A stretch of 55,998 nucleotides of DNA from Candidatus Azobacteroides sp. (GTDB lineage Bacteria > Bacteroidota > Bacteroidia > Bacteroidales > Azobacteroidaceae), in assembly GCA_009783445.1 (NCBI GenBank), contig WRFY01000120.1, forward strand, positions 1 through 55,998, in the 5' to 3' direction. The notes under the pieces are model-generated. The model was not told the origin of the DNA, did not search any database, and was given only the letters and a program-made list of their open reading frames with translations. Position numbers and translations under genes: made by a program. Positions 17,649-55,461 of this stretch are shown here, one piece after another (position 1 is the first letter of the stretch; each line of letters starts with the position of its first letter).

Positions 17649-19967
17649 TCAGAATGGATAGCCGATCGCGAGGTGAATCGTCGACTGACGGAAAAGATTA
17701 TCTTTGAATAAGACCATGCGTTTGCCTTCGTCGCGGGCAGGATCGTAAACGCGCGTTCCTGCATCTAAACGGAGAAGTAAAAAATTCAAATCGAAACGCA
17801 GTCCAAAACCTATCCCCACGGCTATTTCCTTATAAAACTGATTCCAACGAAAGAGACCGTCCGGTTGATTGGGATAATCTTTTATTGTCCAGATGTTTCC
17901 AGCATCAACAAAAAGAGCAGGTTCCAGCCACGACAAAACTTTGAGACGGTATTCGGCGCTCATGATCAACTTGATGTCGCCCACGTGAGTGGTCGGATCG
18001 CCTGCTATTCCTCGATTGTAAGAACCCGGGCCTAAATACCGTGTACTCCAACCTCTCACGCTGTTTGGGCCGCCGGCGTAAAATCGTTTTTCGAAAGGAA
18101 GAATATCCGAATTTCCATACGGATAGGCCGCTCCAATTCCCCAATGAAATGCCATCCGCGTAATTGGATTCAATGAAAATGTTTCCGAAAAATCGATCTC
18201 GCCTTTCGCATATTGCGCAAAAGGATTTCCGAAAATCCTATATTGCCCCTCTTCCGATTTACTGGCCTTTCTCTTTTTAAAATACCAGTTCAAGAGATTT
18301 CCGGAAGTTTCGGCATTGAAACGAATCGTATACAAATTCTGGCGCACCCCTCCCGTACCCGTATTCGTATAGATCAGACCATAATCAATTCCCGCTGTAA
18401 ATACATTGTCGTAACTGAGTTTTGTCAGCGAATCTACATAATTATTCAGGTAATCTTGAAATAGTTCGGATTTCCACGGCATATTCACATAATTGATATC
18501 TAAAAGGCTTAAACTGTGATTAGTCGTTTTCCTTTGACTCTCCCAACGTATTTTCCAGTTGAAATTGAAAAAGTTTCGCATGTATTCGGGACGTTGTTGA
18601 ATATTGTATCCCAAACTGTACTGAGTCTGCGTACTGAAACGATTGGCTACGTATTTTCCAATAAAAGGAAAATGCAATTTGGGAAATGTCAACGAAGGGT
18701 TGATTTCCAATTCGTAATAATTATTTGCGATAGCGCCTTCCGATTTTCCGCTCACAAATTCGTAAGCGCCCCGCAAATGGATATTGAAGATTTCAGAACC
18801 ATTGAAAATATTGAGATTTCCATAATTAACATCCAATGCGACGCCTAAATTTCCGGCCTTGTTGGTTCCTTCCAATCCGGTTTGTAGAGAATGACTGTTT
18901 CCCGGCGTCAGATAAATATTGCAGTCCAGCAAAGTAGAATCGGGATAGAGATTCTCGCCGTACTGAATGTCTACACGCCCCATGCAATTCAGGGACTGAA
19001 AAAGATTGTAAGTGGCTTCCCTTTGCCGTTCCCGAAACAGTTGCTCCGGAGCCACCATGACCTTTTCCGCGATCACCTTGGGACGCAGGAAATGCAAACT
19101 ATCATAATAAATATGAATTCCCTTGTATTCTACCGAATCCACTATTCGATAGTCTTCTCTTTCAAAAGGATCGTAACCGCTATACACGTTGACCCGTTGA
19201 ACGGTATAAGGACGAGCATACAGACTGTCCAAGGCGATCATGGTTAAATCCACTTGATTGGAACGGAGAGTCGTATCGGCTAAATAGTGCAGATTTTCTT
19301 TCGTAGAAGTATAATAGCCCAAATTCTGCAAGGTCGAACTGAGTCTTATCCGTTCTTTTTCAAGTAATTCAATGCTAAAAATTGAGCCTTCCCGAATTAT
19401 TCGCACCCGTCTTGAATTGCGATTCAAGCGGTTGGCATTATTTCTGTTTCTTTGGCTTCTTCGGTCTCTTAGTTGGGGAACGTCTATTTGGAAATTACGT
19501 ACTCTATAAGGTTCGCCGTTGTGAATGTGGTAAATAACTTCGGCAATATTTCCGATCGTATCTACCTGAGCCGATACTAAGGAGTTGAAATATCCCCTGT
19601 TATTCATTTCTGCTTCCAATTCGCTGATCGAAGGGCTAACCCACTGCGATTGAAATATCGCTGGAGGTTCGCCTAATTTACGAACAAATCTTTTGATGAA
19701 ATTGGAATCGTTCTTCACCATATTGTAAATGCGCGGCGCTAAGCCGGACGAATTCGCTCTTTGCTGAATAAAAGGCAGGAGCGATTCTTTGTCAGTTCCC
19801 TTGTCGTCCATCTGGATATCTACTTTGTTTAAAAAGTATTGCCCTTCAGGAATATATTTCGTAGGAGAACAAGCGGGATTGAAAATAAAAACAACCACAC
19901 AGTAAATTCCCATAACAACCGCCGGAATTTTTTTTTTCAGATCATACCTTTTTTTCATTCTCTTCAT
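17649..19967 (-). CDS. tamL: TamL/TamA-type outer-membrane lipoprotein (BamA/TamA family)
   Basis: 772 residues. The N-terminus is a lipoprotein signal with the lipobox cysteine in FNPACSPTK (about residue 33), which distinguishes the Bacteroidota TamL form from proteobacterial TamA. POTRA-like domains occupy about 40-350, followed by a 16-strand-type beta-barrel. The barrel carries GPNSVRGWSTRYLGPG, the conserved VRG loop motif of the BamA/TamA family, and ends in an aromatic-rich strand (STIHLAIGYPF). It probably assembles or transports envelope components with TamB. The ATG overlaps the tamB stop as ATGA. Confidence 0.9.
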   Translation of the reverse strand: MKRMKKRYDLKKKIPAVVMGIYCVVVFIFNPACSPTKYIPEGQYFLNKVDIQMDDKGTDKESLLPFIQQRANSSGLAPRIYNMVKNDSNFIKRFVRKLGEPPAIFQSQWVSPSISELEAEMNNRGYFNSLVSAQVDTIGNIAEVIYHIHNGEPYRVRNFQIDVPQLRDRRSQRNRNNANRLNRNSRRVRIIREGSIFSIELLEKERIRLSSTLQNLGYYTSTKENLHYLADTTLRSNQVDLTMIALDSLYARPYTVQRVNVYSGYDPFEREDYRIVDSVEYKGIHIYYDSLHFLRPKVIAEKVMVAPEQLFRERQREATYNLFQSLNCMGRVDIQYGENLYPDSTLLDCNIYLTPGNSHSLQTGLEGTNKAGNLGVALDVNYGNLNIFNGSEIFNIHLRGAYEFVSGKSEGAIANNYYELEINPSLTFPKLHFPFIGKYVANRFSTQTQYSLGYNIQQRPEYMRNFFNFNWKIRWESQRKTTNHSLSLLDINYVNMPWKSELFQDYLNNYVDSLTKLSYDNVFTAGIDYGLIYTNTGTGGVRQNLYTIRFNAETSGNLLNWYFKKRKASKSEEGQYRIFGNPFAQYAKGEIDFSETFSLNPITRMAFHWGIGAAYPYGNSDILPFEKRFYAGGPNSVRGWSTRYLGPGSYNRGIAGDPTTHVGDIKLIMSAEYRLKVLSWLEPALFVDAGNIWTIKDYPNQPDGLFRWNQFYKEIAVGIGFGLRFDLNFLLLRLDAGTRVYDPARDEGKRMVLFKDNLFRQSTIHLAIGYPF

Positions 19968-22900
19968 TTTTTCTTGAATTTATCAAATAATTTTTTGAAA
20001 GTCCGCGCATTTCGCTTATAGATAACGCCGACCCCTTGCGTAGTTTTGGCTAATTCGAAATACCGATTGTTGGTTACATTGTAAAATTTCAGCAAAATAT
20101 TTCCCGAAGGAATCAATTTATATTCCATATCGAAATCGCCCGTAAAATTATTCGACTGATCCATGTTGTCGCCATGCATCATCCCCACCGTTCCATTGAT
20201 AGTCAAACGATCGTTGAAAAGACGGGTAGAGATATTGACATCCATATCTACATTGTCGAAGTTGGAATCTTTCGTCCGCAAATTGGTCCCGATCGACCAT
20301 TGGCTGCCCAATGCGTTGGACAAGAGATTATTCAACTGACCGGTAATAGAAGACGAAGCCAAAGAAGTCCAAATCTGGCTGGTTCCCGTGTTCTGATTGG
20401 AATTGAGCGGATAGAAAGTTCCGAATGCAAGTAAATAAGCGATTTCTTTGATTCGTAAATCTTCGGTATGCAATAATCCGTCTAATTTTCGCTGCATGTC
20501 TTCAGATTCTCCGGGAAGCAAGACTCTGTATTTCAATTCCATTTTATCCCAATTGCCACTCGCAGTAAGAGAACAGGCCACCGGAGTTTTAGTAGTCGTA
20601 TATTTTTCAAAACCTTGATCGAGCGTAGTCAAATCGGCGCGCAGGTTGTAAAGAGCCGTCAAGTCGAAAGACGTGGCCATCGGATCGCCTCGGAAAACCA
20701 ATTTTCCACCCTGTTGAATTGTAAACGATTTTCTCGTGATATTCGCCAGCGAAAGCGTTGCGTTTCCCGATTCGACTATATAATTACCCAAAATACTCAT
20801 GGCAGCAGTATTCATATCATACGTCCATTGGAGCGAGCCGCTGCCTGCGATTCGGGCAGCGTCGTGTGTTGCCGGATTAAAAACCGCTCCCAGCGTCAAA
20901 CCGGTATCCAACCATAAGGAAAGATCAATCTTCAAGGGAAGCGTGAAATTGTCTTTCGCTTTTCGCTTTTTTTCCAACGCATCCTGATTTTCCTCCCCTA
21001 TATTTATGTAAGTGATTCCATCGTAATTTACGGCCGTACTTGGCGTATAGGGAATGTTAATCATTACAGTGGAAAGATTCGAATGCGTAATATTGCCGCT
21101 GATCAACCAGTCTTTGTTTTTTTGCTTCACATTCAAAATCCCGTTCACCCGTAAATTTCCGTAAAACAAGCTGTCGATTTGCCGTTCGTTGTTGAGGAGC
21201 AGAAAATCGCTTAAGCTAATGGATAAAAGAGGTTTGAATTCGGCAAAATTTTGATGCGTAATTTGTCCGTTTATCGTCAAGGGATGATCGTTTTCATCTA
21301 AAATCGTAAATCGGTTAAATTCAACCACATTCGAATTGAAAGAGATTGAATCGCTGGTGGAATATAAAGTATTGAGCATGTCGATTCCGAAGGTAGTGCG
21401 ATTGAAATACGCTTTCCCTGTGATTACAGGAGCAGATATCTTCCCTTCGACTTTGAATTCTGTACTTAAACTGCCGGATAAACCATGCAAAGTCCCTTGC
21501 ATCCAATCCTGCAACCATTGCAATTCGACTCCCTTGATATTGGCTGAAAGGGATAAGGAATCTTTTTCCGGCAGAATAATGCCTTGCATTGTCGATTGCG
21601 GACTGTTTTCACGATCTAAAGTGGCGCGCAAAGCCAAGCCGTTCCGTCGGCTACTCCAACCGCTGCTGATGCTTAAATTGCCTAAAGCTTTTTGATTCAG
21701 AATTATATCGTGGATGGAAAATTCACGGGCAAACAAAAAAGGAGTGGATAACAGATTTCGGGCAATAATTCGGCCGTCAGCAACTCCCGAAAGAGGAATA
21801 TCCGTTTTTGTTGCTCCAAAAATGGTGGACAGTTGAAATTGCGAAATATCCACTACAAGACTGTCTTCGCGGGAAGCGGAAATGATGCCGTCGGTTTTGA
21901 CATATTCGTTGACGTTGTTAGCCGAGTGAATCAACAGGTCGTGAATGCTGTAACGTCCTCCCTCTATCTCGATCTTTGCCGGATTGAGTTGGAAATACGT
22001 TTCGTTCAATACCCAAACGGACGGATTCAACGCAATCTGCATGTCGGGAACAAAACTTCCTTTTTTAGGGATAAATTCCACTTCGGCGTCAATGCTGCCG
22101 TCTAAATCATATTTTGACGATTTATTGTCCACGTTGAAAATAACGGACAGATTGTTTTGTTTATTTGCTAACAAAAGGCTCAATTGTAAAGTATCCGATT
22201 CGGAAAAAAGCGTATAAGCGCTCGTAGAAAGTTGAACATTGCTCCCGTCGTTGCTGTATTTTCCGATAAAAAGAATCGAATCGGGAATCGAAGAAGGAAA
22301 ATCCAGAAGATCCGAAATCGAACGAATGTTTTTCATTCCCAACCTGAAATTCAAGTTCTGCGCGAAGGAATCTTTTTTATTCGGACGTCGTTTGCTATTG
22401 GGGAACAACATCGGAAAAATTTCTTTCAAAGATTCTTCTATTCCGGCGTAAGTGAAATTGCCGTTGGCCCTAGCATTGATTGTGCGGGAAGAAATATTCA
22501 GTCGTTTATTGTTGTTGCCCGCCTGATAGGCCAGATTGAAACGAGGTTCGTAAAAAACGCCTTTATCCGTACGAAGCGATAAATTATCGACCGTTGCATC
22601 CACTCGCATATTTTCGGGATCCAGTCCTTCTACGCCGACCGTCAGTTTGGAAATCAGAGAAACATCTTTATAACCGGAAATAAAATTCAACGTATCCAAA
22701 TAAAGATAACGGACGTCGGCTGAAAGCTGGATTCCGGGTTTTTTCTTGTCCATATTGGCCAAAGCCTTAACTTGCAAATTCACACAACTGTCGTTACTGT
22801 TTAGGTTCAGTTGAATTGTATCGCCGGAGTAACTGCCCTCCGCTTGAATCTGGTTGTACGAATAAGCATTGTAATCGAAACGATCTAATTGAATTTCTCC

Positions 22901-24253
22901 CATGAGATTCATTTTCCCCGATGCATCGATACTTCCCCTGCTTTGTAAATGCAAATCGGTCAATCCGTAAATGGAATCTTGCAACAATGTTCTTATATCC
23001 AAATTCTCCGCATCGATCGCTGCGTTGAAATGAGACATTCCAGTATCAAAATCGAATCCGCCATCGCCCTCCAACTGGATTGTTCCTTGATCGCTTTGAA
23101 GCGTAAAATGCGCCAGTAAAGAGGCTAGAGTTCCTTGCAAAACGCCGCTCAGAGAAATGCCGCCCATTTTGAAGGGCACCTGTTCTTGATTTCCCGAAAC
23201 AAGCGACAGAATTCTTCCCATTTCATAATCATCTATCGATAAACGATTTAAATCAAATTGAATAGGAGACTTTTTCCATTGATTGTAATCTTCGATAGAA
23301 CCGGTAAACTTTAGATTAGCGTGTTTGCCGTAATTTGCTTGAAACTGAGTAATCTGTATTTGCGGCAACTTTCCCTTGATTTTTCCAGAAAAAAGCAAAT
23401 TGTCGTCCGCAAAATTCGATAATCCGGAATAAAACATATTGAAATCGGCCAGATTCATGGCGCTTTCACCCAAGACAATTTCGACATTTTCCTTCTCCAT
23501 GCGAACTTCGGGAATGAGTAAACGAGAACGAAGAAACTGAATCGACAGATTGTCCAATCCGATTTTTTCTCCTTCCGAAAAAATTTTCACTTCCAATTGG
23601 GCGACATTCAACCTGCTTTTTTCCGTAAAAGACAAATGCTTGACCTCGATGTCCAGGTGATTCGCCTCAATCGAATTCAAGTCGATATTCGATTGAATAT
23701 TAGAAATATAAATATGATTAAAATCAAAAACGCTATCCGATAAAAACGGCTCCGAATTTACATCGTAACGAAAACGACCTTCTTTCAAAGCGATGTCGCG
23801 GATTTGAACCGTAAACTTGGAAGCGGTCGTATCAGGCGTATCAGATGCAAAAGCATCCACAAGAAATTGAAAATTAAAATTGCCGTTTATGCTATCTTTA
23901 TTTAGATTAATTATAAATTTTTCCAAGTCGATGGACTTGATTCTTATTTGTTGTTTCAGCAAACGGGACAAATGGAAGGTTGCAGACGCTTTTTCCGCAA
24001 ACAAAAGGGTATCTCCTTTTTGGTCTTCCACATATACATTTTCGAGTTTCAATTGATTAAAAGGACGAAAATAGAGATTACCAATACTCATTCGATTGTG
24101 AGTGATTTTCATCAGTTCGTCCAACGCAATATCCTTTACCTTTTGTTGAACGGCAGGTAACCACAACAAAAGATAAATCGCTAACATCAGTACGCCAAGA
24201 GCGGTTATTATAATGTATGCTACACGAATCTGTTTTTTAACGATATCGCGCAA
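19964..24253 (-). CDS. tamB: Translocation and assembly module protein TamB
   Basis: About 1430 residues. An N-terminal transmembrane helix (RVAYIIITALGVLMLAIYLL) is followed by a very long beta-rich repetitive region of AsmA/TamB type and a C-terminal DUF490 domain (about the last 400 residues, ending ...YKRNARTFKKLFDKFKKK). It is expected to span the periplasm and work with TamL in outer-membrane assembly or lipid transport. No ATG precedes the membrane helix: the frame is open to a GTG at 24355 inside the OsmC-like gene. I prefer the TTG at 24253, which leaves 27 nt to the osmC-like stop. It overlaps tamL by 4 nt. Confidence 0.9.
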   Translation of the reverse strand: MRDIVKKQIRVAYIIITALGVLMLAIYLLLWLPAVQQKVKDIALDELMKITHNRMSIGNLYFRPFNQLKLENVYVEDQKGDTLLFAEKASATFHLSRLLKQQIRIKSIDLEKFIINLNKDSINGNFNFQFLVDAFASDTPDTTASKFTVQIRDIALKEGRFRYDVNSEPFLSDSVFDFNHIYISNIQSNIDLNSIEANHLDIEVKHLSFTEKSRLNVAQLEVKIFSEGEKIGLDNLSIQFLRSRLLIPEVRMEKENVEIVLGESAMNLADFNMFYSGLSNFADDNLLFSGKIKGKLPQIQITQFQANYGKHANLKFTGSIEDYNQWKKSPIQFDLNRLSIDDYEMGRILSLVSGNQEQVPFKMGGISLSGVLQGTLASLLAHFTLQSDQGTIQLEGDGGFDFDTGMSHFNAAIDAENLDIRTLLQDSIYGLTDLHLQSRGSIDASGKMNLMGEIQLDRFDYNAYSYNQIQAEGSYSGDTIQLNLNSNDSCVNLQVKALANMDKKKPGIQLSADVRYLYLDTLNFISGYKDVSLISKLTVGVEGLDPENMRVDATVDNLSLRTDKGVFYEPRFNLAYQAGNNNKRLNISSRTINARANGNFTYAGIEESLKEIFPMLFPNSKRRPNKKDSFAQNLNFRLGMKNIRSISDLLDFPSSIPDSILFIGKYSNDGSNVQLSTSAYTLFSESDTLQLSLLLANKQNNLSVIFNVDNKSSKYDLDGSIDAEVEFIPKKGSFVPDMQIALNPSVWVLNETYFQLNPAKIEIEGGRYSIHDLLIHSANNVNEYVKTDGIISASREDSLVVDISQFQLSTIFGATKTDIPLSGVADGRIIARNLLSTPFLFAREFSIHDIILNQKALGNLSISSGWSSRRNGLALRATLDRENSPQSTMQGIILPEKDSLSLSANIKGVELQWLQDWMQGTLHGLSGSLSTEFKVEGKISAPVITGKAYFNRTTFGIDMLNTLYSTSDSISFNSNVVEFNRFTILDENDHPLTINGQITHQNFAEFKPLLSISLSDFLLLNNERQIDSLFYGNLRVNGILNVKQKNKDWLISGNITHSNLSTVMINIPYTPSTAVNYDGITYINIGEENQDALEKKRKAKDNFTLPLKIDLSLWLDTGLTLGAVFNPATHDAARIAGSGSLQWTYDMNTAAMSILGNYIVESGNATLSLANITRKSFTIQQGGKLVFRGDPMATSFDLTALYNLRADLTTLDQGFEKYTTTKTPVACSLTASGNWDKMELKYRVLLPGESEDMQRKLDGLLHTEDLRIKEIAYLLAFGTFYPLNSNQNTGTSQIWTSLASSSITGQLNNLLSNALGSQWSIGTNLRTKDSNFDNVDMDVNISTRLFNDRLTINGTVGMMHGDNMDQSNNFTGDFDMEYKLIPSGNILLKFYNVTNNRYFELAKTTQGVGVIYKRNARTFKKLFDKFKKK

Positions 24254-24279
24254 TGGATCATTCGCTTTTCTTAGTTTAT

Positions 24280-24699
24280 TTAAACCGATTCCATATAAGC
24301 GACTGTCCGCGTAATTTTCAATTCGGCAGAAGATAAGGTGTTTGCCACAGGACACCCTTTGATAGCTCCTTCAATAATTTTTCGTTCTTTATCAGAGTAA
24401 CGATTGTGAGGGAAAGTAAAATTCACAATTAATTCTACAATCCGACGGGGGCTTTCGCCCATCACCTTGGTGGTCTCCACCGTTGCTCCGTCGATACTAA
24501 AGCCATGCGTTTGAGTAGCAATTCCTATGATTGTCAATGCGCAACTTGCATAAGAAGCTGCAAATAAATCGGTAGGAGAAAAAGCTTCTCCTTTTCCGTG
24601 ATTATCCAGAGGCGCATCAGTCACTATTTTAGCGCCGGATTGCAAATGTTTTGCTTCGGTTCGAAGATTGCCTAAATACCTTGTTTCTACTGTAGCCAT
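24280..24699 (-). CDS. OsmC family protein
   Basis: 139 residues of the OsmC/Ohr fold. The two conserved cysteines are in ASYASCALTIIG (about residue 53) and IKGCPVANTLSS (about residue 117). Family members reduce organic peroxides or act in related stress roles; this one looks like the YhfA-type subgroup. It lies just upstream of tamB on the same strand. A TAATTTTG box lies upstream at 24732-24725. Confidence 0.88.
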   Translation of the reverse strand: MATVETRYLGNLRTEAKHLQSGAKIVTDAPLDNHGKGEAFSPTDLFAASYASCALTIIGIATQTHGFSIDGATVETTKVMGESPRRIVELIVNFTFPHNRYSDKERKIIEGAIKGCPVANTLSSAELKITRTVAYMESV

Positions 24700-41166: not shown

Positions 41167-42057
41167 ATGAAGAAATTATTTTCCAAAGAAGCTGTTATAG
41201 GAATAGTCACTGCAATAAGTTTATTCGTACTGTATCTCGGAGTCAATCACTTAAAAGGAATCAATATTTTTAAGCCGACGAATCAGTATTATGTACTTAT
41301 GCCCAATGTATCCGATTTGCAAAACTCGAGTCCGGTCTTTGTGGACGGATTTAAAGTAGGGATAGTGAATTCGATTCAGTACGAATACGAGAACCCCCTT
41401 TCGCATAGTATTGTGGTGCAAATCAGTTTGGATAAAAGCATGAAACTACAAACCGGAAGTTATGTCGAACTAAAATCCGGATTGACTTCAGGGGCTTATT
41501 TAGACATGAAGCTGAATCATTATGTCAGTACTTATTGCCATCCGGGAGATACGATTCACGGTATTGCAGATATCAGTTTGATGGAAAAAATTTCCAATGA
41601 ATTCATGCCGCAAATCGAAAATTTGCTTCCGCGCCTGGATTCCATACTGGCTGGCATTCAATTCATAGTTAACCATCCAGCATTGACCCAATCTTTGGAA
41701 CAGATAGAAATGACGACCGTTCATCTTCAAAAATCTTCTAAACAGCTAAATCTGCTTTTGTCCAATGAGGTTCCAGTCATTTTAAATAATTTAGGAAAAG
41801 TTTCATCCGATTTTACGACCGTTAGCGAAAATCTGAAAGGGATGGATTTGCAGGGTACGCTCAATACAGTCGACGGTGCGCTCCAGAACATCGACCAAAT
41901 GACGAAGCAATTGAACAATCCAGACAGTTCGCTCGGTCTTTTGATGAAAGACCGGAATTTATACGATCATTTGGATTCGACTGCTCTCAATGCTTCCAGA
42001 CTTCTTTTAGACATTCGAGAACGCCCCAAACGCTATGTCCATTTTTCTGTTTTTTAG
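41167..42057 (+). CDS. MlaD/MCE family protein
   Basis: 296 residues. One N-terminal transmembrane helix (IGIVTAISLFVLYLGV) is followed by a single MCE domain (about 38-120) containing YYVLMPNVSDLQNSSPVFVDGFKVG-type sequence (cited in part: SSPVFVDGFKVGIVNSI) and a long helical C-terminal region (about 140-290). It is probably the substrate-binding part of an Mla-like lipid transporter across the envelope. The ATPase and permease genes are not next to it. It was probably transcribed with the amidase. Confidence 0.9.
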   Translation: MKKLFSKEAVIGIVTAISLFVLYLGVNHLKGINIFKPTNQYYVLMPNVSDLQNSSPVFVDGFKVGIVNSIQYEYENPLSHSIVVQISLDKSMKLQTGSYVELKSGLTSGAYLDMKLNHYVSTYCHPGDTIHGIADISLMEKISNEFMPQIENLLPRLDSILAGIQFIVNHPALTQSLEQIEMTTVHLQKSSKQLNLLLSNEVPVILNNLGKVSSDFTTVSENLKGMDLQGTLNTVDGALQNIDQMTKQLNNPDSSLGLLMKDRNLYDHLDSTALNASRLLLDIRERPKRYVHFSVF

Positions 42058-42375
42058 ATAAAATAAGAAGGGAGAGATTTCGTTTCCACACAAAAAGGAA
42101 AGCGAAACATCTTATTTAGATTCATTCTAAAAAGCAGCGAAAAAAAAATAAAAAAAAATCTTTCAAATATCATAGGCTCATTCTTAGTCATAAGTTCGCT
42201 TTTCAACGAGTCTAATTTGAAGCAAAGTGAAAATAATATACGTAATAGATTGAGTGTCAGATGTGTATCTTTACCTGTAATTGTCCAATATAAGTTACTG
42301 ACAAAGAGACAATAAAAAATTTTACTGAAAACCAAGAAAAAAATCATTTTTTTATCCCGTTTTTTTTTTGAAATT
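42058..42375. other. AT-rich leader region of dnaA
   Basis: 318 bases with A- and T-runs and no gene. No cluster of TTATCCACA-type DnaA boxes was found, so I do not call an origin here. A TATCTTTA -7-like box lies near 42262-42269. Confidence 0.45.
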
Positions 42376-42418
42376 TTGCATTACAAAAGTGAGTGTGTAG
42401 TGTGTGTTCATCAAATAC

Positions 42419-42445
42419 AAAAGTACGGACTGCAAAAAGTACGGA
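42419..42445 (+). repeat. Direct repeat at the dnaA start
   Basis: AAAAGTACGGA occurs twice (42419-42429 and 42435-42445), 16 bases apart, the second copy ending on the first base of the ATG at 42445. Possibly a regulator site controlling dnaA. Confidence 0.45.
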
Positions 42446-43881
42446 TGTATTGTAGTGTTAAAAAACAAAAAAGTGTTCAAGTGGAATCCTGTAATATAAT
42501 ATGGAAACAGTGCTTAGAAATTATTAAAGACAATATTTCGGAAAGCGTCTTTAGTACCTGGTTTACTCCCATCATTCCTTTGAAATATGAAGAAGATGAT
42601 TTTACCATTCAGGTTCCAAGCCAGTTTTTCTACGAATATTTGGAAGATAAATATGCAGACCTGGTTCATGCAGTTCTTTCCAGAGTAACGGGTAAAAGAA
42701 TCATTCTCAATTATCGTATCATCATTGATACTTCAAACCGAAGCAACGGACATACCACTTTACCCAGTGAACGTCCGGCCAGTTTTAGTGAAAATCAGCG
42801 GATAGCCAATAATTTGAATAAAGCTCCCAACGTTTTGTACCAACCTTCGGATTTGGATTGGGATCCTAATTTGAACAACCGTTTGTGTTTTCACAATTTT
42901 TTTGAAGGCTCCAGCAATAAGCTGGCGCGTTCGATTGCGTTGACTATTGCTCAAGAACCGGGAAAAGAATTTAATCCCTGTTTTATATATGGCAATTCGG
43001 GCGTTGGAAAAACCCATCTATGTCATGCGATCGGAAACAAAATAATGGAAATTGATCCGCAAAAAAAAGTGCTTTACATTTCGGCCCATTTGTTTGAAGT
43101 TCAATTCACGGATGCACGGAAAAAAAATACGCACAACGATTTTGTTCATTTTTATCAAGGAGTAGATGTGTTGATTTTGGACGATATACACGAGTTGGCC
43201 GGAAAAGAAAAAACCCAGCAGGCTTATTTCCATATTTTCAACCATCTCAAATTGATCGGGAAACAGTTAATTCTCACAGCCGACAAAGCGCCGGTCGACA
43301 TTCAGGGATTAGAAGAACGTCTTATTGGCCGTTTGAAATGGGGTTTGACCCTGGAAATGCACAAACCGGATTTGGAACTGCGAAAGAAAATTCTTCACAA
43401 CAAAGTAAAACAAGACGGATCCAACATTTCCGAAGAAATCATCAATTATATCGCAGAAAACGTAACCGAACATGTCCGCGATTTGGAAGGAATTATCAGT
43501 TCGTTAGTGGCTCACTCGTTAGTATACAACCGAGAAGTAAATCTGGATTTGGCTAAAAGGGTGGTAAGTAAAACAATCAAAATGGAAAAGAAACACATCA
43601 CTATCGAAAAAATCCAAGATGTGGTGAGTTCTTATTTCAAAATCAATATTGCGGAAATTCATTCAAAATCACGCAAAAGAGAAATTGTTCAAGCGCGGCA
43701 AGTGACTATGTTTTTATCCAAAAAACATACCGATCTTTCGTATTCCCGCATTGGTACCATAGTCGGAAAAAGAGACCATGCTACTGTATTGCACGCTTGC
43801 AAAACGATTCAGGACAGCTTGGATATAGACAAAGGATTTCGTTTGAAAATGACCGACATCGAAAATTTATTGCATCAATAG
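42445..43881 (+). CDS. dnaA: Chromosomal replication initiator protein DnaA
   Basis: AAA+ initiator that binds origin boxes and opens DNA. Domain I (CNIIWKQCLEIIKDNISESVF...), a variable linker, the AAA+ core with Walker A YGNSGVGKTHLCHAIG (about 181-196) and Walker B VDVLILDDIHEL, and domain IV with GKRDHATVLHACKTI. About 478 residues from ATG 42445. A GTG at 42481 gives MESCNIIWKQCL, which matches the start of Bacteroides DnaA better, so the true start could be there. The frame also extends upstream to a TTG at 42376, which is unlikely. Confidence 0.95.
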   Translation: MYCSVKKQKSVQVESCNIIWKQCLEIIKDNISESVFSTWFTPIIPLKYEEDDFTIQVPSQFFYEYLEDKYADLVHAVLSRVTGKRIILNYRIIIDTSNRSNGHTTLPSERPASFSENQRIANNLNKAPNVLYQPSDLDWDPNLNNRLCFHNFFEGSSNKLARSIALTIAQEPGKEFNPCFIYGNSGVGKTHLCHAIGNKIMEIDPQKKVLYISAHLFEVQFTDARKKNTHNDFVHFYQGVDVLILDDIHELAGKEKTQQAYFHIFNHLKLIGKQLILTADKAPVDIQGLEERLIGRLKWGLTLEMHKPDLELRKKILHNKVKQDGSNISEEIINYIAENVTEHVRDLEGIISSLVAHSLVYNREVNLDLAKRVVSKTIKMEKKHITIEKIQDVVSSYFKINIAEIHSKSRKREIVQARQVTMFLSKKHTDLSYSRIGTIVGKRDHATVLHACKTIQDSLDIDKGFRLKMTDIENLLHQ

Positions 43882-44912: not shown

Positions 44913-46172
44913 ATGAAAACAAATATCAAACAAATCGGTATTGTAACCTTGTTTATTTTATTGTTTTCGAGCTTTACGAACGTAAGAGCCGAAGGCGACG
45001 ATTCTTATTTCACGATCAGCGGGGTGGTGAAGGATAAATCAAACAAGAAAAAGGTGGAATATGTGAACATATCCGTACCGGGAACCAACATCAGCAGCAT
45101 CACGAACGAAGATGGAGCATTTGTACTCAAAATCAGAGATTCGATTCAGGCGAAAGAAGTCGAATTTTCCCGAATCGGCTATTTCAATACCCGCGTTCCC
45201 ATCTATGGCGCTGATTTATTGGATCAAACATTCTATTTGGTCCCAAACGAAAAACAGTTGAAAGAGGTTATTGTTGAAAGTTGGGGAAGTCCTGCGGATT
45301 TAGTAAAAGAAGCGTTAAGGCGAGTAGCTCATAATTACAGCAACAAACCCAATTTACTGACTGGATTTTATAGAGAAACGGTACAAAAAAGGAAAAAATT
45401 CATCAATATTTCCGAAGCCGTTATCCATATCTATAAAAATTCGTATTCGGACATCACCTCCAATGATCGGGTACAAATTTTCAAGGGTCGAAAATTGATC
45501 ACCACGAAAGTAAGCGACACTTTGGCCGTGAAATTGCAGGGCGGGCCTAACTTATCTATTTATGGCGATATAGTTAAAAATCCTGATATTTTGTTTGATG
45601 AAGAATCTTTGTCTTATTTCAGCTTCAAAATGGAAAATTCGGCATTTTTGGACAACCGGCAACAATATGTAATCAGTTTTACCCCTGTGATCACTCTGCC
45701 TTACCCATTGTATTACGGAACTTTATATATTGATAAAGAAACGTTGGCTTTTACTCGCGCCGAATTTTATTTGGATTTGAAAGACCGAAACAAGGCCATC
45801 GAAGCGATATTGCGTAAAAAACCGGCTGGACTGCGATTCAAGCCCGATGAAGTCTTTTTTGTCGTTTCCTATAAGCAGCGAGAGGGTAAAAGCTACTTGA
45901 ATTATATCCGTAATGAACTGAAATTCAAATGCGACTGGCAACGCCGACTGTTTGCGACAAACTATACGGTAGTGAGTGAAATGGTGGTAACCGAAATGAA
46001 AGAAGATGCTGTAAGTAATATTCCCCGCAAGGAATCGTTCAATAAAAATGAATCGCTGAGCGATAAAGTTATGAGCTTTTATGATGATAATTTTTGGGGA
46101 GCGTACAATATTATTGAACCAACCGAATCGCTGGAATCAGCAGTAAATAAATTGAAAAAAGAACATCAGTAA
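44913..46172 (+). CDS. Carboxypeptidase-regulatory-like domain protein, paralogue without STN
   Basis: 419 residues. A signal peptide (1-26, ending NVRAEG) is followed by a carboxypeptidase-regulatory-like Ig-fold domain (about 32-110, YFTISGVVKDK...SITNEDGAFVLKI) and an uncharacterised domain of about 300 residues. That domain shows GFYRETVQKRK, LYYGTLYIDKETLA, YLNYIRNEL and NIPRKESF. It aligns well with the C-terminal part of the protein at 47654-49186, so the two are paralogues flanking a sigma/FecR pair. A periplasmic or outer-membrane location is inferred. A TATTTTTG box lies at 44769-44776. Confidence 0.8.
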   Translation: MKTNIKQIGIVTLFILLFSSFTNVRAEGDDSYFTISGVVKDKSNKKKVEYVNISVPGTNISSITNEDGAFVLKIRDSIQAKEVEFSRIGYFNTRVPIYGADLLDQTFYLVPNEKQLKEVIVESWGSPADLVKEALRRVAHNYSNKPNLLTGFYRETVQKRKKFINISEAVIHIYKNSYSDITSNDRVQIFKGRKLITTKVSDTLAVKLQGGPNLSIYGDIVKNPDILFDEESLSYFSFKMENSAFLDNRQQYVISFTPVITLPYPLYYGTLYIDKETLAFTRAEFYLDLKDRNKAIEAILRKKPAGLRFKPDEVFFVVSYKQREGKSYLNYIRNELKFKCDWQRRLFATNYTVVSEMVVTEMKEDAVSNIPRKESFNKNESLSDKVMSFYDDNFWGAYNIIEPTESLESAVNKLKKEHQ

Positions 46173-46220
46173 ATTATGAATTTTACAACAGGCCATTCAT
46201 AATTTATAATTTATAACAAA

Positions 46221-46796
46221 GTGCCAATCAGCATATTGACTTTCAAGAAAATAAAAGACGGAAACATATGGGCTTTCGAAACCCTTTTCCGATCCTACTA
46301 CGAACCCTTGTGCCGTTACGCCTATCAATGGGTCGAAAATAGGGAAACGGCTGAAGAAATCGTACAAGATCTATTTTATATTCTTTGGAAGGAAAGGCAA
46401 ACCCTGCAAGTGTTCACTTCCGTGAACGGATATTTATATCGTTCCGTCAAAAACAAATCGCTGCAATATGTTGAGAAAAGAAAAGTAAGAGATGCCTATC
46501 AGAAAATGTGCGCGGAAAATACAATTCTGGAAACTCCCACACCTCTGGAAGAATTGGAATACAAAGAGTTGGAACAGCATATAGAGGAAACCTTGCGCCG
46601 TTTGCCCGAACGCAGGCAAAAAATATTCCGAATGAGTCGGATGGAAGGAAAAAAGTATCATGAAATCGCGCAGGAACTGCAAATATCCGTAAAAACGGTA
46701 GAAGTCGAAATAAGTAAAGCGCTTCAGGAATTACGCGATCAATACAGTTCTACATACGATTCAAAAAAGCAAAAAGTCAAAAAGTCAAACGCATGA
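46221..46796 (+). CDS. ECF-type RNA polymerase sigma factor
   Basis: 191 residues from a GTG start. Sigma region 2 covers about 17-60 (FETLFRSYYEPLCRYAYQW, AEEIVQDLFYILWKER). Region 4 covers about 115-170 (LRRLPERRQKIFRMSRMEG, YHEIAQELQISVKTVEVEIS). It belongs to the Bacteroidota sigma-70 family controlled by FecR-type anti-sigma factors. Its stop overlaps the FecR start as ATGA, so the two are translationally coupled. The paralogous gene ends 48 nt upstream. Confidence 0.93.
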   Translation: MPISILTFKKIKDGNIWAFETLFRSYYEPLCRYAYQWVENRETAEEIVQDLFYILWKERQTLQVFTSVNGYLYRSVKNKSLQYVEKRKVRDAYQKMCAENTILETPTPLEELEYKELEQHIEETLRRLPERRQKIFRMSRMEGKKYHEIAQELQISVKTVEVEISKALQELRDQYSSTYDSKKQKVKKSNA

Positions 46797-47647
46797 AACA
46801 AAATAAAGACGGCATATGCCGGATGGATGTGGATAAAGCATGGAATAGCCTCTATGCACGATTGGAAAAAGAGCAGCTATTGACCATCGAAGCAGAACAT
46901 TTCTCTTATCGAAAACGAAAAATACCGCTTCAATGGGTGGCGGCGGCTGCTATTTGTGCCGGAATTATTTTTTCTGCCTTCTATTTTTCTCAAAACAGGG
47001 ATCATTCGGCGTTATTTCTAACCAATACAGATTCCAGCACATTGGTCTCTACGCTTGAAGACGGTTCAATCGTTTATTTGGCAAGTCAGGCATCTCTTTG
47101 CTATCCATCCGCTTTTGCTGTTGATCAGCGAAAAGTGGAACTCAACGGCAACGCTTTATTTTGCGTAGCAAAAGATGAAAAACGTCCTTTTGTTGTTAAA
47201 ATCAATGGAATCCGAATCGAAGTGGTAGGAACCATTTTTGCCGTTCAATCTTCTCCCGATCATTCGTTTGAACTTTCAGTAAAACAGGGAAAAGTAAATG
47301 TTCAAGCCAAGGACGATCCCATAATTCTTCCTGTGGAAAGCGGCGAAACCGTTCAATTGAATACGGGCAAACTGAGCAAGTCGAGAACGGAAGATTTTCG
47401 ACTATTCCGCCTTTTCACCGACAAGATGCGTTTCAAGGACGAAAAATTAGACCACATTGTTCAGGCTATTAATACCCTCTATGGTTCTCCAATCCTTATT
47501 GCCGACGAATCCATCCATAACAGGACATTGACTGTTACGTTTGAAAATAACTCCGTTGAAACGATGACGGAATTAATCTGCATGGCATTGCACTTGGAAC
47601 AAATCAATAAACAGGATACCATCTTTATCCGGTCATTCATAAAATAG
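46793..47647 (+). CDS. FecR-type anti-sigma factor
   Basis: 284 residues. A cytoplasmic sigma-binding N-terminus (about 1-45) precedes a single membrane helix (LQWVAAAAICAGIIFSAFYF), then the FecR domain (about 85-200, with GSIVYLASQASLCYPS and EVVGTIFAVQSS) and a DUF4974 C-terminal domain (about 210-280, KMRFKDEKLDHIVQAINTLY). By family it holds the sigma factor until an outer-membrane partner's STN domain signals through the periplasmic part. The STN-bearing protein starts 6 nt downstream. Confidence 0.93.
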   Translation: MKQNKDGICRMDVDKAWNSLYARLEKEQLLTIEAEHFSYRKRKIPLQWVAAAAICAGIIFSAFYFSQNRDHSALFLTNTDSSTLVSTLEDGSIVYLASQASLCYPSAFAVDQRKVELNGNALFCVAKDEKRPFVVKINGIRIEVVGTIFAVQSSPDHSFELSVKQGKVNVQAKDDPIILPVESGETVQLNTGKLSKSRTEDFRLFRLFTDKMRFKDEKLDHIVQAINTLYGSPILIADESIHNRTLTVTFENNSVETMTELICMALHLEQINKQDTIFIRSFIK

Positions 47648-47653
47648 AGATTT

Positions 47654-49186
47654 ATGCGAAGTTGTTTCATTGGAATAATTTGTTTTTTCGGGTGTTGTTC
47701 TTTTGCAAAAGCAGAGGAAATTCTCGATCAGGAAATACAATTGCCCAAAACAAGGGAAACAACGTATGAATTACTCAACCGAATTACCGACCTTACAGGT
47801 TTCTTTTTTATTTACGATAGCGATGTCATTCGCAATGAAAAAAAAATCAAATTTTCCGGAGGAAAACACACCTTGAGGCAATCCATTTACTTGATCACTC
47901 AGAATCAAAACATACAAATCAAGGTGATGGGCCGGCATATCCTTTTGTATAAGAAAGAAGCCTTGCCTTCCAGCGTCAGTAAATCCGTACCGATAATTAA
48001 CGACAGCCTGACTTATGTTGTTGCAAAAGCCATGGTAAAAGATGCCCAAACCCAAGAACCTATTCCGCATGTTTCCGCAAGCATCGCAGAAACCGGCATC
48101 GGAACCATTACCAATCAGTCGGGCGAGTTTATGCTTAAAATACCGCTTTCCGATTCCACTCAATACATTCAAATTTCTCATGTAGGTTATAATCAACAGA
48201 TTATACCCGTAGAGTTGTTTCGGAACAATCCGGTAGATATCTATATGCAAACAAAAATAATTCCGCTGGAGGAAGTCATCATCGGCTTGGTCAATCCGCA
48301 AAAAATCATACGGGAAATGCTTAATAACAAACCTATTAACTATCAGAAGGATCCCGTTTATTTCACCGCCTTTTACCGAGAAGGCATAGAGAAAAAAAAT
48401 ACCCTTATCAGTTTGACCGAAGCTGTATTTCAAATATATAAAACCGGCTTTGAATCGTCCGCCAACGATCAGGTCAAATTATTAAAAATGAGAAAAATAA
48501 GTAATGAAGACGAACATGATTCCCTGATCGTAAAAATGAGAGCCGGAATTGATGCCTCTTTGCGTTTGGATATTATCAAATACATTCCCGATTTTCTCGA
48601 TTTGAGCAACGAACCCCCATTTATCTATACCAAAATAGACATGACGGTAACCGATTCCAGTTTAGCGCATGTAATTGCTTTTGAGCAAAAACCCGGAATT
48701 GCGGAACCATTTTATAAAGGGGAACTCTATATTGATGCAGAAAACAGCGCTTTGTTGGCTGCGCATTTTGAAGTTGATCCGCGTTATATTGATAAAGCAA
48801 CAGATATATTTGTACTCAAAAAACCCAAAGGAGTGGACATCAAACCGGAAAATGCCAGCTATTATGTATATTACAAATATTGGAATGGAAAGTATTATTT
48901 AAACCACATTCGAGGAGATGTAACATTCAAGATGAAAAAAAAGAATATTCTTTTTCAACCTTCCAAATCCATTCATATTTTTTTTGAAATGGTTGTTTGC
49001 AAAATCGACACCTGTGATGTGAAAAGATTTCCGCGCAAAGAAAGCATCTCTACCCGCACGGTATTTTCAGAAACAAAATTTCACTACGACAACCGCTTCT
49101 GGGACGATTTCAATGTCATTCTTCCCGAAAAAGAACTCAATGAAGCGATCACTCGCATCTCTTCCAAAATAGAAGAAATGGAGTGA
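47654..49186 (+). CDS. STN-domain and carboxypeptidase-regulatory-like protein
   Basis: 510 residues. A signal peptide (1-20, ending SFAKAE) is followed by a secretin/TonB short N-terminal (STN) domain (about 30-100, TTYELLNRITDLTGFFFIYD), a carboxypeptidase-regulatory-like domain (about 125-205, VKDAQTQEPIPHV...TNQSGEFMLKI) and the same uncharacterised C-terminal domain as its paralogue (AFYREGIEKK, YKGELYIDAENSALL, YLNHIRGDV, RFPRKESI). There is no TonB-dependent receptor barrel or plug. In related sigma/FecR systems the STN domain belongs to a SusC-like receptor; here it is on a receptor-less protein. It is last in the sigma-FecR operon. Confidence 0.85.
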   Translation: MRSCFIGIICFFGCCSFAKAEEILDQEIQLPKTRETTYELLNRITDLTGFFFIYDSDVIRNEKKIKFSGGKHTLRQSIYLITQNQNIQIKVMGRHILLYKKEALPSSVSKSVPIINDSLTYVVAKAMVKDAQTQEPIPHVSASIAETGIGTITNQSGEFMLKIPLSDSTQYIQISHVGYNQQIIPVELFRNNPVDIYMQTKIIPLEEVIIGLVNPQKIIREMLNNKPINYQKDPVYFTAFYREGIEKKNTLISLTEAVFQIYKTGFESSANDQVKLLKMRKISNEDEHDSLIVKMRAGIDASLRLDIIKYIPDFLDLSNEPPFIYTKIDMTVTDSSLAHVIAFEQKPGIAEPFYKGELYIDAENSALLAAHFEVDPRYIDKATDIFVLKKPKGVDIKPENASYYVYYKYWNGKYYLNHIRGDVTFKMKKKNILFQPSKSIHIFFEMVVCKIDTCDVKRFPRKESISTRTVFSETKFHYDNRFWDDFNVILPEKELNEAITRISSKIEEME

Positions 49187-49345: not shown

Positions 49346-50752
49346 TCAAAACAGAAAGAAATTTTTAGCATTGTAATAACTGATATTTTCCACCATCTGG
49401 CCCAGAAAATCGAGTTCATCCTCTGGCAAGCATCCGTTTTCCACATCAGAGCCGATTAAATTGCAGAGTATCCGGCGGAAATATTCGTGTCTCGGATAGG
49501 AAAGGAAACTGCGCGAATCGGTCAGCATGCCGACAAAACGGCTCAACAATCCCAATACCGATAAAGTATTTATTTGCTTTTCTATACCTTCTTTCTGATC
49601 GAGAAACCACCAGCCCGAACCGAATTGAATTTTTCCGGCAACGCTTCCATCCTGAAAATTACCAATCATGGTAGCAACCATTTCATTGTCAGCTGGATTC
49701 AGATTGTAAATGATAGTCTTTGCCAATTTATTTTGTTTGTCGAGCGTATCCAGAAATTTAGACATGGCTTTCGCCGTCAGAAAGGTGCCGATAGAGTCGA
49801 AGCCGGTATCAGCTCCTATTTGGTTGAATAAACGGGTGTTATTATTTCGTATCGCTCCGTAGTGAAATTGTTGCGTCCATCCTTTTTCCCAATTCATTTC
49901 TGCAAAGATCACCAGCATCGCTGATTTGAATTTCAATATATCCCAATAACTCAATTCTTCGCCTCCATATACTCGGTTAAATATCTCTTTGATTTCATCG
50001 TCTGTATAGTCTTCGGCAAAAAATTCTTCAATTCCATGGTCGGATAATTTGCAGCCTTGTTCTGCAAAAAACTCCTGCCGTTTCCGAAGCGCGGCAATTA
50101 AATCATCGAAAGAAGAAATGGAAATATTGGATACATTCGACAAGGTTTCGACATACGACCGGAAGGCGGTCGGATTTTCTACGGCCATCGCTTTGTCAGG
50201 ACGCCAAGTTGGCAACATTTTGATTTCAAAACCGTCGTTTCGGGTTTTAATATGGTGTTCGAGCGAATCCACAGGGTCGTCGGTTGTACAAATTGTTTCT
50301 ACCTTGTATTTCCGCATCAAATTGCGAGCCGAGTATTCCGGCGTTTGCAATTTAGCTGTACATTCTTCGTAAATTTCCCTTGCAGTACGAGGCGATAACA
50401 ATTTTTTTACTCCAAAACCGGTTTTTAATTCCAGATGAGTCCAATGATAAAGCGGATTACGCATAGTATAGGGAACTGTTTCCGCCCATTTTTCAAATTT
50501 TTCCCAATCGGAAGTTTTTTTCCCTGTGCAATATCTTTCGTCGATGCCGTTGGCGCGCATGGCACGCCATTTGTAATGATCGCCCCCCAACCAAATTTCT
50601 GTCAAAGACCTGAATTGATAATCTTCGGCAACCATTGAAGGAATTATATGGCAATGATAATCAATAATTGGCTGTTTCTCAGCATGTTGATGATACAGCT
50701 TTTGCGCGGTTTCCGTTTGCAGCAAAAAATCTTCGTTCATAAACTTTTTCAT
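49346..50752 (-). CDS. uxaC: Uronate (glucuronate/galacturonate) isomerase
   Basis: 468-residue amidohydrolase-fold enzyme that isomerises D-glucuronate to fructuronate and D-galacturonate to tagaturonate. The metal-site motif IIDYHCHIIP lies at about residues 29-38. LTEIWLGGDHYKWRAMRANG and SRSFLSYPRHEYFRR are UxaC signatures. It stands divergently from the other uronate genes, so the spacer at 50753-50905 holds both promoters, including a TAATTTTG box on the minus strand (50809-50802). Confidence 0.96.
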   Translation of the reverse strand: MKKFMNEDFLLQTETAQKLYHQHAEKQPIIDYHCHIIPSMVAEDYQFRSLTEIWLGGDHYKWRAMRANGIDERYCTGKKTSDWEKFEKWAETVPYTMRNPLYHWTHLELKTGFGVKKLLSPRTAREIYEECTAKLQTPEYSARNLMRKYKVETICTTDDPVDSLEHHIKTRNDGFEIKMLPTWRPDKAMAVENPTAFRSYVETLSNVSNISISSFDDLIAALRKRQEFFAEQGCKLSDHGIEEFFAEDYTDDEIKEIFNRVYGGEELSYWDILKFKSAMLVIFAEMNWEKGWTQQFHYGAIRNNNTRLFNQIGADTGFDSIGTFLTAKAMSKFLDTLDKQNKLAKTIIYNLNPADNEMVATMIGNFQDGSVAGKIQFGSGWWFLDQKEGIEKQINTLSVLGLLSRFVGMLTDSRSFLSYPRHEYFRRILCNLIGSDVENGCLPEDELDFLGQMVENISYYNAKNFFLF

Positions 50753-54069: not shown

Positions 54070-54126
54070 AATAGGCAGATTCAATAAAAAATTCTATCTT
54101 TGTCAAAACGTAAAACATCACAGAAT

Positions 54127-55461
54127 ATGAGATTCGAAATTATCAAATCAAAAACAACATTCGCGCTAATAAAAAAACGCTTACGGAAGTGGAAAACAAG
54201 TTTTATAGCGTTCAGTTTTTTTGCAGTAAGTATTTTACAGTTAGCATGCAGTAATAATGAAGGCGATGCAGAAAAACCCGTTTATTCATCTCCGATAAAA
54301 ATCGATTTGTCGGCTACCGAATTGCAATTGACAGGTGAAAGTCAAAATTTCGCTGCTAACTTATTTTCGACTATTCATGAATTACAGGCAAATGATCCAG
54401 AATCCGAAAATATAGTGATTTCCCCTTTAAGCCTGAATATGGCATTGGCTATGGTTTGGAATGGCGCTAACGGCGAAACGAAGCAGGCCATTCAGAAAGC
54501 AATGGGAATGGGCGATTATCCACAGTCGGAAGTAAACGATTATTTCAAAAAAGTGAGGGAAAATTTCGTTAAAACCGATCCGACAGTGAAATTATCTATC
54601 GCCAATTCGATTTGGACAAGGCAGGATTTTTCGGTAAAATCCAGTTTTTATGACGTTAACAAGAACTTTTATCAAGCCGAAGTAAAAGAAGTTGACTTTT
54701 CATCTCCTAATGCCCCTTCTCTCATAAACCAGTGGTGTTTTGACAATACGAACGGATTGATTAAAGAAATAATCGAAGGAAAAATATCCAACGATGTAAT
54801 GATGTATTTGATAAATGCTCTTTACTTCAAAGGAGAATGGTCGGATCATTACGGATTTGATCCGGTTGCAACAAGCGACGCTGCGTTTACAAAAGAAAAC
54901 GGCAGTTCAACTCAGGTAAAAATGATGAATCAGAACAATACATTGCCGTATTATAATGACGAATATTTGTCAACTACTTCTTTGCCGTTTGGAAACGATG
55001 CTTTCAGCATGGCATTTTTTCTTCCGAACGAAAATGTTTCCTTTGCCGAAATGTTGAATCAATTGAAGCAACCGAGCTATTTTGCCCAATGTCTGCAATC
55101 GAGCGGTAAGGCAGACGTCGACTTATATATTCCAAAATTTACTACCGAATATGAGATTACATTAAATGAAACCTTGAAGCAGTTGGGAATGGATATTGCC
55201 TTTACGGACGGGGCTGATTTTTCGGGTATTTCGGATACTCCTTTGTGTATTTCAAATGTAAAACAGAAAACATCGGTTTCGGTCGATGAAAAAGGAGGGG
55301 AAGCGGCGGCCGTCACAGTTGTCGAAGTGATTATGACCTCTGTAGATCCAACAAATACTCCCAAAACAGTTTTCCGAGCTGATCGTCCGTTCCTGTTTGT
55401 TATTCGAGAAAATTCCACCGGAGTTGTTTTGTTTATGGGGAAGATAGGTGGCGTCCAATGA
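54127..55461 (+). CDS. Serpin-family lipoprotein
   Basis: About 444 residues from ATG 54127 (a TTG at 54100 is in frame). Placement of a TATCTTTG box at 54095-54102 argues for the later start. The N-terminus has a hydrophobic stretch and lipobox ending LQLACSNNEG, so membrane anchoring, perhaps on the surface, is inferred. The serpin core follows (NIVISPLSLNMALAMVWNGA, LINALYFKGEWSDHY). The hinge DEKGGEAAAVT has the small residues needed for loop insertion, so an inhibitory serpin is likely. The reactive loop follows with a P1-P1' near Thr-Ser in VIMTSVD, by counting from the hinge. It sits between uxaA and kdgK, unrelated to sugar use. Confidence 0.92.
   Translation: MRFEIIKSKTTFALIKKRLRKWKTSFIAFSFFAVSILQLACSNNEGDAEKPVYSSPIKIDLSATELQLTGESQNFAANLFSTIHELQANDPESENIVISPLSLNMALAMVWNGANGETKQAIQKAMGMGDYPQSEVNDYFKKVRENFVKTDPTVKLSIANSIWTRQDFSVKSSFYDVNKNFYQAEVKEVDFSSPNAPSLINQWCFDNTNGLIKEIIEGKISNDVMMYLINALYFKGEWSDHYGFDPVATSDAAFTKENGSSTQVKMMNQNNTLPYYNDEYLSTTSLPFGNDAFSMAFFLPNENVSFAEMLNQLKQPSYFAQCLQSSGKADVDLYIPKFTTEYEITLNETLKQLGMDIAFTDGADFSGISDTPLCISNVKQKTSVSVDEKGGEAAAVTVVEVIMTSVDPTNTPKTVFRADRPFLFVIRENSTGVVLFMGKIGGVQ

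Follow-up and report, generated by a model that had tools for sequence, protein, structure and literature searches.

A putative self-regulating FecI/FecR-type signaling operon of Candidatus Azobacteroides and other Bacteroidales with a barrel-less STN protein in place of a TonB-dependent receptor

In Bacteroidota, FecI/FecR systems are generally interpreted as switches for nutrient uptake that work with TonB receptors. What does a FecR protein answer to when no receptor is encoded beside it? The question is raised by a four-gene cluster in a 55,998-nucleotide stretch of Candidatus Azobacteroides DNA (contig WRFY01000120.1; the whole stretch is here called the window), from a genome of 2.70 Mb whose nearest relatives are Candidatus Azobacteroides-type bacteria. 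The cluster encodes an exported protein, P1, an extracytoplasmic function (ECF) sigma factor, a FecR-family anti-sigma factor, and a second exported protein, P4, which carries an STN signaling domain. An earlier note on this DNA had placed these genes, and all four were found where it put them, on the same strand (Table 1). We consider it likely that they form a self-regulating trans-envelope signaling operon of the FecI/FecR type in which the exported, barrel-less P4 replaces the TonB-dependent receptor.

The genes run in one direction with gaps of 48, -4, and 6 bp between P1 and sigma, sigma and FecR, and FecR and P4, respectively, and so are arranged like an operon. Compared with a related locus (L031; 62 to 80% identity), the ratios of nonsynonymous to synonymous substitution (dN/dS) for P1, sigma, FecR, and P4 are 0.13, 0.16, 0.22, and 0.15, which places all four genes under purifying selection; the sigma start codon is GTG in the window and ATG at the equivalent place in L031. 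The sigma factor matches TIGR02985 (E value, 2.8e-53) and has sigma-70 regions 2 and 4. The FecR protein contains a FecR domain (4.1e-13) and a FecR_C domain (3e-7; both Pfam) and one hydrophobic membrane stretch at residues about 44 to 67. Its profile matched in the PDB the solved anti-sigma factors 4m0n and 4m0h (3e-51) and also 6ovk (1e-11), which we take to be the PupR/PupB complex with PupR as the matched chain. Gly146-Thr147 of FecR is invariant across 40 aligned sequences and, by analogy, would occupy the same position as the Gly-Thr pair at which FoxR cleaves itself (PMC11637429). The membrane stretch, FecR domain, STN-like C-terminus, and Gly-Thr pair are all parts of known FecI/FecR systems. 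The only other FecR found in the genome (L194:2728-6517, contig C119) is also without an adjoining receptor; there, sigma and FecR are followed by a DUF4140-DUF4139 protein into which a carboxypeptidase-regulatory domain is inserted.

P1 and P4 are 32% identical over 392 aligned positions (E value, 1e-58), a similarity that identifies them as paralogues. CarbopepD_reg_2 occurs in both (Pfam; 1.1e-11 in P1 and 6e-14 in P4), and their C-terminal domains of about 300 residues align with each other (hhalign E value, 1.4e-95). The earlier note had assigned these last two domains to both proteins and STN to P4 only, and hidden Markov model searches and profile-profile comparison agree on the same makeup. 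STN was matched in 43 of 59 full-length P4 relatives (best E value, 7e-13), and the P4 STN profile is related to the C-terminal domain of FecR (hhalign P value, 4e-7); on these two grounds the STN reading of P4 stands. Over the full length of the domain, the P4 family profile also aligned, weakly, with the PupA signaling domain (2a02; E value, 0.032) and with PilQ (0.22), the whole STN domain being covered. Neither P4 nor its 59 relatives contain a plug or barrel family, the 510 residues of P4 ending with the shared domain, and none of the 59 has a TonB_C or TolA family, the domain of about 300 residues being found instead. That P4 might be a truncated SusC was considered and rejected, because its last 300 residues match P1 and not a plug; the TIGR04056 model matches only over its first 83 positions (40 bits, with a cut-off of 368). 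All P4 sequences fall on one side of a branch with support of 100 in the P1/P4 tree, which points to a single origin, so that the STN-bearing paralogue most likely arose once, anciently.

In a profile search of 393 Bacteroidales genomes, full-length P4 was found in about 80, belonging to some 29 family-level groups. P4 is immediately preceded by FecR in 78 of the 84 P4 loci collected, and the order P1-sigma-FecR-P4 is complete in 61 of the 78 P4 loci with enough upstream sequence, these 61 coming from at least about 20 family-level groups. Correlations between the pairwise distances of the four proteins range from 0.78 to 0.85 (P4 versus FecR, r = 0.85), which is what joint inheritance as a single operon would produce. 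That a sigma/FecR pair merely adjoins two unrelated exported proteins by chance could draw on the genomes in which P1 stands alone or other genes take its place, yet it is refuted by the 61 loci of the same order, the correlated distances, and a promoter that comes and goes with sigma (see below), and we regard it as scarcely credible. Outside Bacteroidales, the matches listed in a survey of 392 genomes of the phylum all lacked the full STN form and came from several families of the same class, and no relatives were found on viral contigs. Within the genus of the window, the whole unit occurs only in its own genome and one other (G033), and P1 occurs in about 13 genomes. The stand-alone P1 genes of Azobacteroides nest inside the operon P1 group in the tree, from which it follows that P1 stayed behind in those genomes when sigma, FecR, P4, and the promoter were lost.

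Comparison of the window with L031 revealed a well-conserved stretch before P1 that includes the promoter site. Dyad counts in 61 upstream regions found ATAGGGTA in 44, against 0.4 expected, and the consensus before P1 is ATAGGGTAW-N14-ATCWTA; such a pair of short blocks about 15 bp apart has, as far as sequence can tell, the form of an ECF sigma promoter. A profile (nnATAGGGTAtt, 10 bp, nnnATCtTAnna), fitted to the 61 four-gene loci that were later scored with it, gave scores of 14 to 22 in 55 of them, the spacer hardly varying and the site usually lying about 40 bp ahead of the start codon, while 610 shuffled upstream regions reached a maximum of 13.8, with 99% below 6.9. Because the profile was fitted on the same loci, the independent tests weigh more. 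The motif is found before none of 12 P1 genes without an adjacent sigma/FecR/P4 set, compared with 55 of 61 (Fisher P value, 1e-9); it is present, with a score of 18.7, in L041, a P1-sigma-FecR locus outside the fit; and in five loci without P1 it stands before the sigma gene (scores, 13 to 17). Occurrence of the promoter only where sigma is present argues for autoregulation, that is, for transcription of the operon by its own sigma factor. On neither strand of the window does any site besides the one before P1 reach a score of 9. Pattern scans of this genome and 20 others returned the operon itself and otherwise about as many matches as a reversed control, many of them inside genes. With few further convincing sites, the sigma factor seems to act mainly on its own operon and the circuit to be mostly self-regulating. 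One intergenic copy of the motif in G162 (L309/L317 around 6061; score, 19.4) stands before an exported alcohol dehydrogenase-like gene, a possible second target. The receptor-less sigma/FecR signaling unit that the earlier note had proposed is thus well supported by the conserved gene order, by the linkage of an STN protein with FecR, and by a promoter that occurs only together with sigma; the note had staked this proposal on P4 having no barrel, on its STN region being related to STN, and on relatives having the four-gene order, and all three were found.

Several loci depart from this order. P1 is absent upstream of sigma in two groups of loci: in L141, L142, L144, L146, and L148, an ABC exporter-like pair takes its place, and in L117, L121, L133, and L134, which retain the promoter motif before sigma, an AEC-type transporter-like gene lies upstream. 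In G007 (L049:5377-6635), P1 is split into two overlapping open reading frames of 250 and 169 amino acids, suggesting a frameshift. In G013 (L043:4768-7867), the genes after a stand-alone P1 encode a distinct sigma factor, of about 21% identity, and a membrane protein resembling another anti-sigma factor, and P1 may have been recruited there by a second sigma system. G201 and G278 (L156:3523-5088 and L160:4459-6021) have between FecR and P4 a second barrel-less STN-type protein of 520 amino acids, with a FecR_C/STN-like N-terminus, a retropepsin-like aspartyl protease, and a PDZ domain; a receptor-less FecR system with a built-in protease deserves separate study.

Gene order, linkage, the promoter, and its dependence on sigma are computational observations; the working of the system is proposed by homology. 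In known FecI/FecR systems, FecR is bound at its STN-like C-terminus by the receptor's STN domain, and the FoxA signaling domain binds FoxR without signal and protects it from proteolysis (PMC11637429). By homology to FoxA/FoxR and PupB/PupR, P4 would dock on FecR and protect it. FecR, in the inner membrane, would hold the sigma factor; at rest, the STN domain of P4 would sit on the STN-like FecR C-terminus and shield FecR from proteolysis. A periplasmic or outer-membrane event, bound by the C-terminal domain of P4, the presumed sensor, would then alter or remove this contact, and FecR would be degraded. We propose that this signal-dependent proteolysis, for which FecR has the conserved Gly-Thr pair, frees sigma, which would transcribe its own operon from the promoter described above. 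More P4 would reset the switch, and more P1 would supply the likely effector with the shared, proposed ligand-binding domain; in addition, competition between P1 and P4 for a common ligand could complete a feedback loop. P1 is most likely the effector, since its gene directly follows the promoter and is retained when the rest is lost. The description of P1 and P4 as paired paralogous outputs in the earlier note therefore suits P1, whereas for P4 a double role as sensor and target is the better reading.

What P4 might sense would depend on the shared C-terminal domain, through which the earlier note had also suggested that sensing possibly occurs. The most recurrent Pfam family is LolA_like (PF17131), matched in 4 of 49 members (best E value, 0.0029, below the cut-off), as well as in a more distant relative (0.003) and in P1 of the window (0.034). 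As to a LolA/LolB/RseB-type fold, the LolA_like E values of 0.0029 to 0.03 stay below the cut-off, and hhalign gave a P value of 5e-4. The domain also aligned with the periplasmic part of DUF5686 (hhalign score, 41.5; P value, 2e-4; 206 columns; best reversed-profile decoy, 32.8), and a terminal DxxFW motif is common to P1, P4, and DUF5686 proteins. DUF5686 (PF18939) itself had no match in the window proteins, the family cut-off not being reached and the similarity being to one part of the model only, and it was matched in 2 of 59 P4 relatives (best E value, 4.9e-6). Casein kinase matches in the PDB (E values, 0.002 to 0.6; two profiles) were rejected as a short chance match at one conserved stretch. 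Together, these comparisons weakly suggest a LolA-like periplasmic domain related to DUF5686. The earlier note had called the domain uncharacterized, which holds as far as solved relatives are concerned and is qualified by this weak, recurrent similarity.

RseB has a LolA-like periplasmic domain that informs an anti-sigma factor about lipids or lipoproteins. RseB, LolA, and LolB offer a possible working analogy for P4, although the similarity is weak and to PF17131 only. We tentatively raise, as a doubtful extension, that the operon is an envelope-quality sensor, in which the putatively LolA-like domain of P4 would bind misplaced lipids or lipoproteins and P4 would release FecR, and induced P1 would take up the same ligand, repair the fault, and end the signal. 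If so, FecI/FecR parts would have been assembled in Bacteroidales into an equivalent of the RseB branch of the sigma-E response. The same similarities have been weighed in favor of another explanation, that P1 and P4 help to assemble the outer membrane or handle lipids or lipoproteins in the manner of LolA or DUF5686 proteins, that sigma and FecR simply raise their level under envelope stress, and that STN brings P4 to FecR as a feedback brake and not as a sensor. Among the families found for the C-terminal domain, LolA_like alone recurs at E values below 0.02, the DUF5686 alignment and shared terminal motif point the same way, and P1 survives by itself in genomes that lost the regulatory genes. 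However, the similarity is weak, and this explanation, which overlaps with that of P4 as the partner of FecR and differs mainly in whether P4 senses, seems to us quite improbable.

In Parabacteroides merdae with sialic acid, NQ542_RS07340, a carboxypeptidase-like regulatory domain protein, and NQ542_RS07355, an STN and carboxypeptidase regulatory-like protein, were both about four-fold lower (PMC12893687, Table 2). If this locus is the operon described here, P1 and P4 are coregulated in a cultured gut species. RefSeq tags usually advance in steps of five, which leaves two genes between these tags and fits the order P1, sigma, FecR, and P4.

Some points weigh against P4 as the sensing partner of FecR. 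The STN match in the window protein is weak (E value, 0.0028, below the Pfam cut-off). PDB profile searches found no solved relative of the C-terminal domain by sequence, and the AlphaFold model of P4, made from four sequences, has a predicted local distance difference test (pLDDT) score of 36 and does not establish the fold. Binding of P4 to FecR or to a ligand is a prediction, and the P. merdae genes fit P1 and P4 by product names and tag spacing, not by sequence. Moreover, an STN-bearing TonB receptor encoded elsewhere could be the true partner of FecR: a conventional SusC/TonB-dependent receptor would address FecR in trans, P1 and P4 would be only targets, and the STN domain of P4 would be left over from a fusion. 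SusC-sized proteins that match the STN and carboxypeptidase-regulatory part of P4 are indeed encoded in the genome (e.g., C122:9265-9855, in a frame of 1,154 amino acids, matching query residues 5 to 213). Yet it is P4 that FecR adjoins in nearly all loci collected, and an unused STN domain would be expected to decay, whereas P4 is under purifying selection and has kept its STN domain since one ancient origin. A receptor in trans is therefore unlikely, and P4 remains our candidate for the partner of FecR.

The closest precedent, absent from the earlier note, is VreA-VreI-VreR (PUMA3) of Pseudomonas aeruginosa (PMC2729926), which likewise combines a FecI-kind ECF sigma factor, a FecR-like regulator, and a barrel-less exported STN protein. 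VreA, however, is a 23-kDa protein with a TolA/TonB-like C-terminal domain, its genes are in another order, and at least 27 genes are controlled (PMC2729926), whereas P4 has a carboxypeptidase-regulatory-like domain, a different domain of about 300 residues, a paralogue in P1, and a promoter mainly at its own operon. FecIRA, FoxIRA, and PupIRB (PMC11637429 and PMC7186176) share the FecI-like sigma factor, the FecR with FecR_C and the invariant Gly-Thr pair, and the STN-bearing partner; unlike them, the present operon has no TonB-dependent receptor, plug, or barrel. SusC/RagA receptors have STN and CarbopepD_reg_2 in the same order as the first approximately 210 residues of P4, but everything that follows in P4 is the P1-type domain. 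The RefSeq product name "STN and carboxypeptidase regulatory-like domain-containing protein" (PMC12893687) most likely denotes the same type of protein, as a name only, with no function or system described; annotation has thus already recognized this order of domains. Bacteroides BT4460-62, an iron-responsive set with a carboxypeptidase-regulatory protein and a sigma factor (PMC10434189), was considered, and its identity with this system could not be shown. Full-text literature searches, from which subscription journals were mostly absent, turned up no description of the system, although the group may appear in large ECF classifications. FecI/FecR signaling is known, and so is a barrel-less STN partner, VreA, with another C-terminal domain, gene order, and regulon. 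A receptor-less FecI/FecR unit kept intact across much of Bacteroidales, an order of gut bacteria, with one main promoter and a paired sensor and effector, offers a clean, testable circuit, the promoter motif being testable at once, and gives a hint of how envelope monitoring may work in Bacteroidales, which is poorly understood in this order.

Table 1. Positions of the operon features in the window
Feature	Position	Strand	Basis
Predicted ECF-type promoter, TTATGGGGTATT-TCACGGCTGG-CCGATCATAAAA, 42 bp before the P1 start codon	44837..44870	+	Profile score, 18.1
P1, 419 aa: signal peptide, CarbopepD_reg_2, shared C-terminal domain, no STN; exported	44913..46172	+	Family and pairwise search
P1 C-terminal domain, residues about 124-419, common with P4, weakly LolA-like	45282..46169	+	hhalign, LolA_like matches
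ECF sigma factor, FecI-like (TIGR02985), GTG start	46221..46796	+	Profile match
FecR-family transmembrane anti-sigma factor, 4-bp overlap with sigma gene	46793..47647	+	Pfam, PDB profile, hydrophobicity
FecR Gly146-Thr147, invariant pair	47228..47233	+	40 aligned sequences
FecR_C domain, residues 211-279, STN-like; predicted docking site for P4 STN	47423..47629	+	Pfam, hhalign, PDB profile
P4, 510 aa: signal peptide, STN, CarbopepD_reg_2, shared C-terminal domain; no plug or barrel	47654..49186	+	Family and pairwise search
P4 STN domain, residues about 29-102	47738..47959	+	Pfam, relatives, profile comparison
P4 C-terminal domain, residues about 213-510, proposed sensor; conserved terminal YDxxFWxxxNxIxP motif	48290..49183	+	Profile comparison

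With no relevant PADLOC match, a reading of the locus as a defense system is unsupported. Elsewhere in the window, a gene for an MlaD-type protein lies beside dnaA (41167-43881), about 1 kb from the cluster, and adjacent Omp85-family (772 amino acids) and TamB-family (1,463 amino acids) genes form a TAM-like outer-membrane assembly pair on the minus strand (17649-24355). A serpin-family protease inhibitor gene is found at 54100-55461, near the uronate isomerase gene UxaC (49346-50752).

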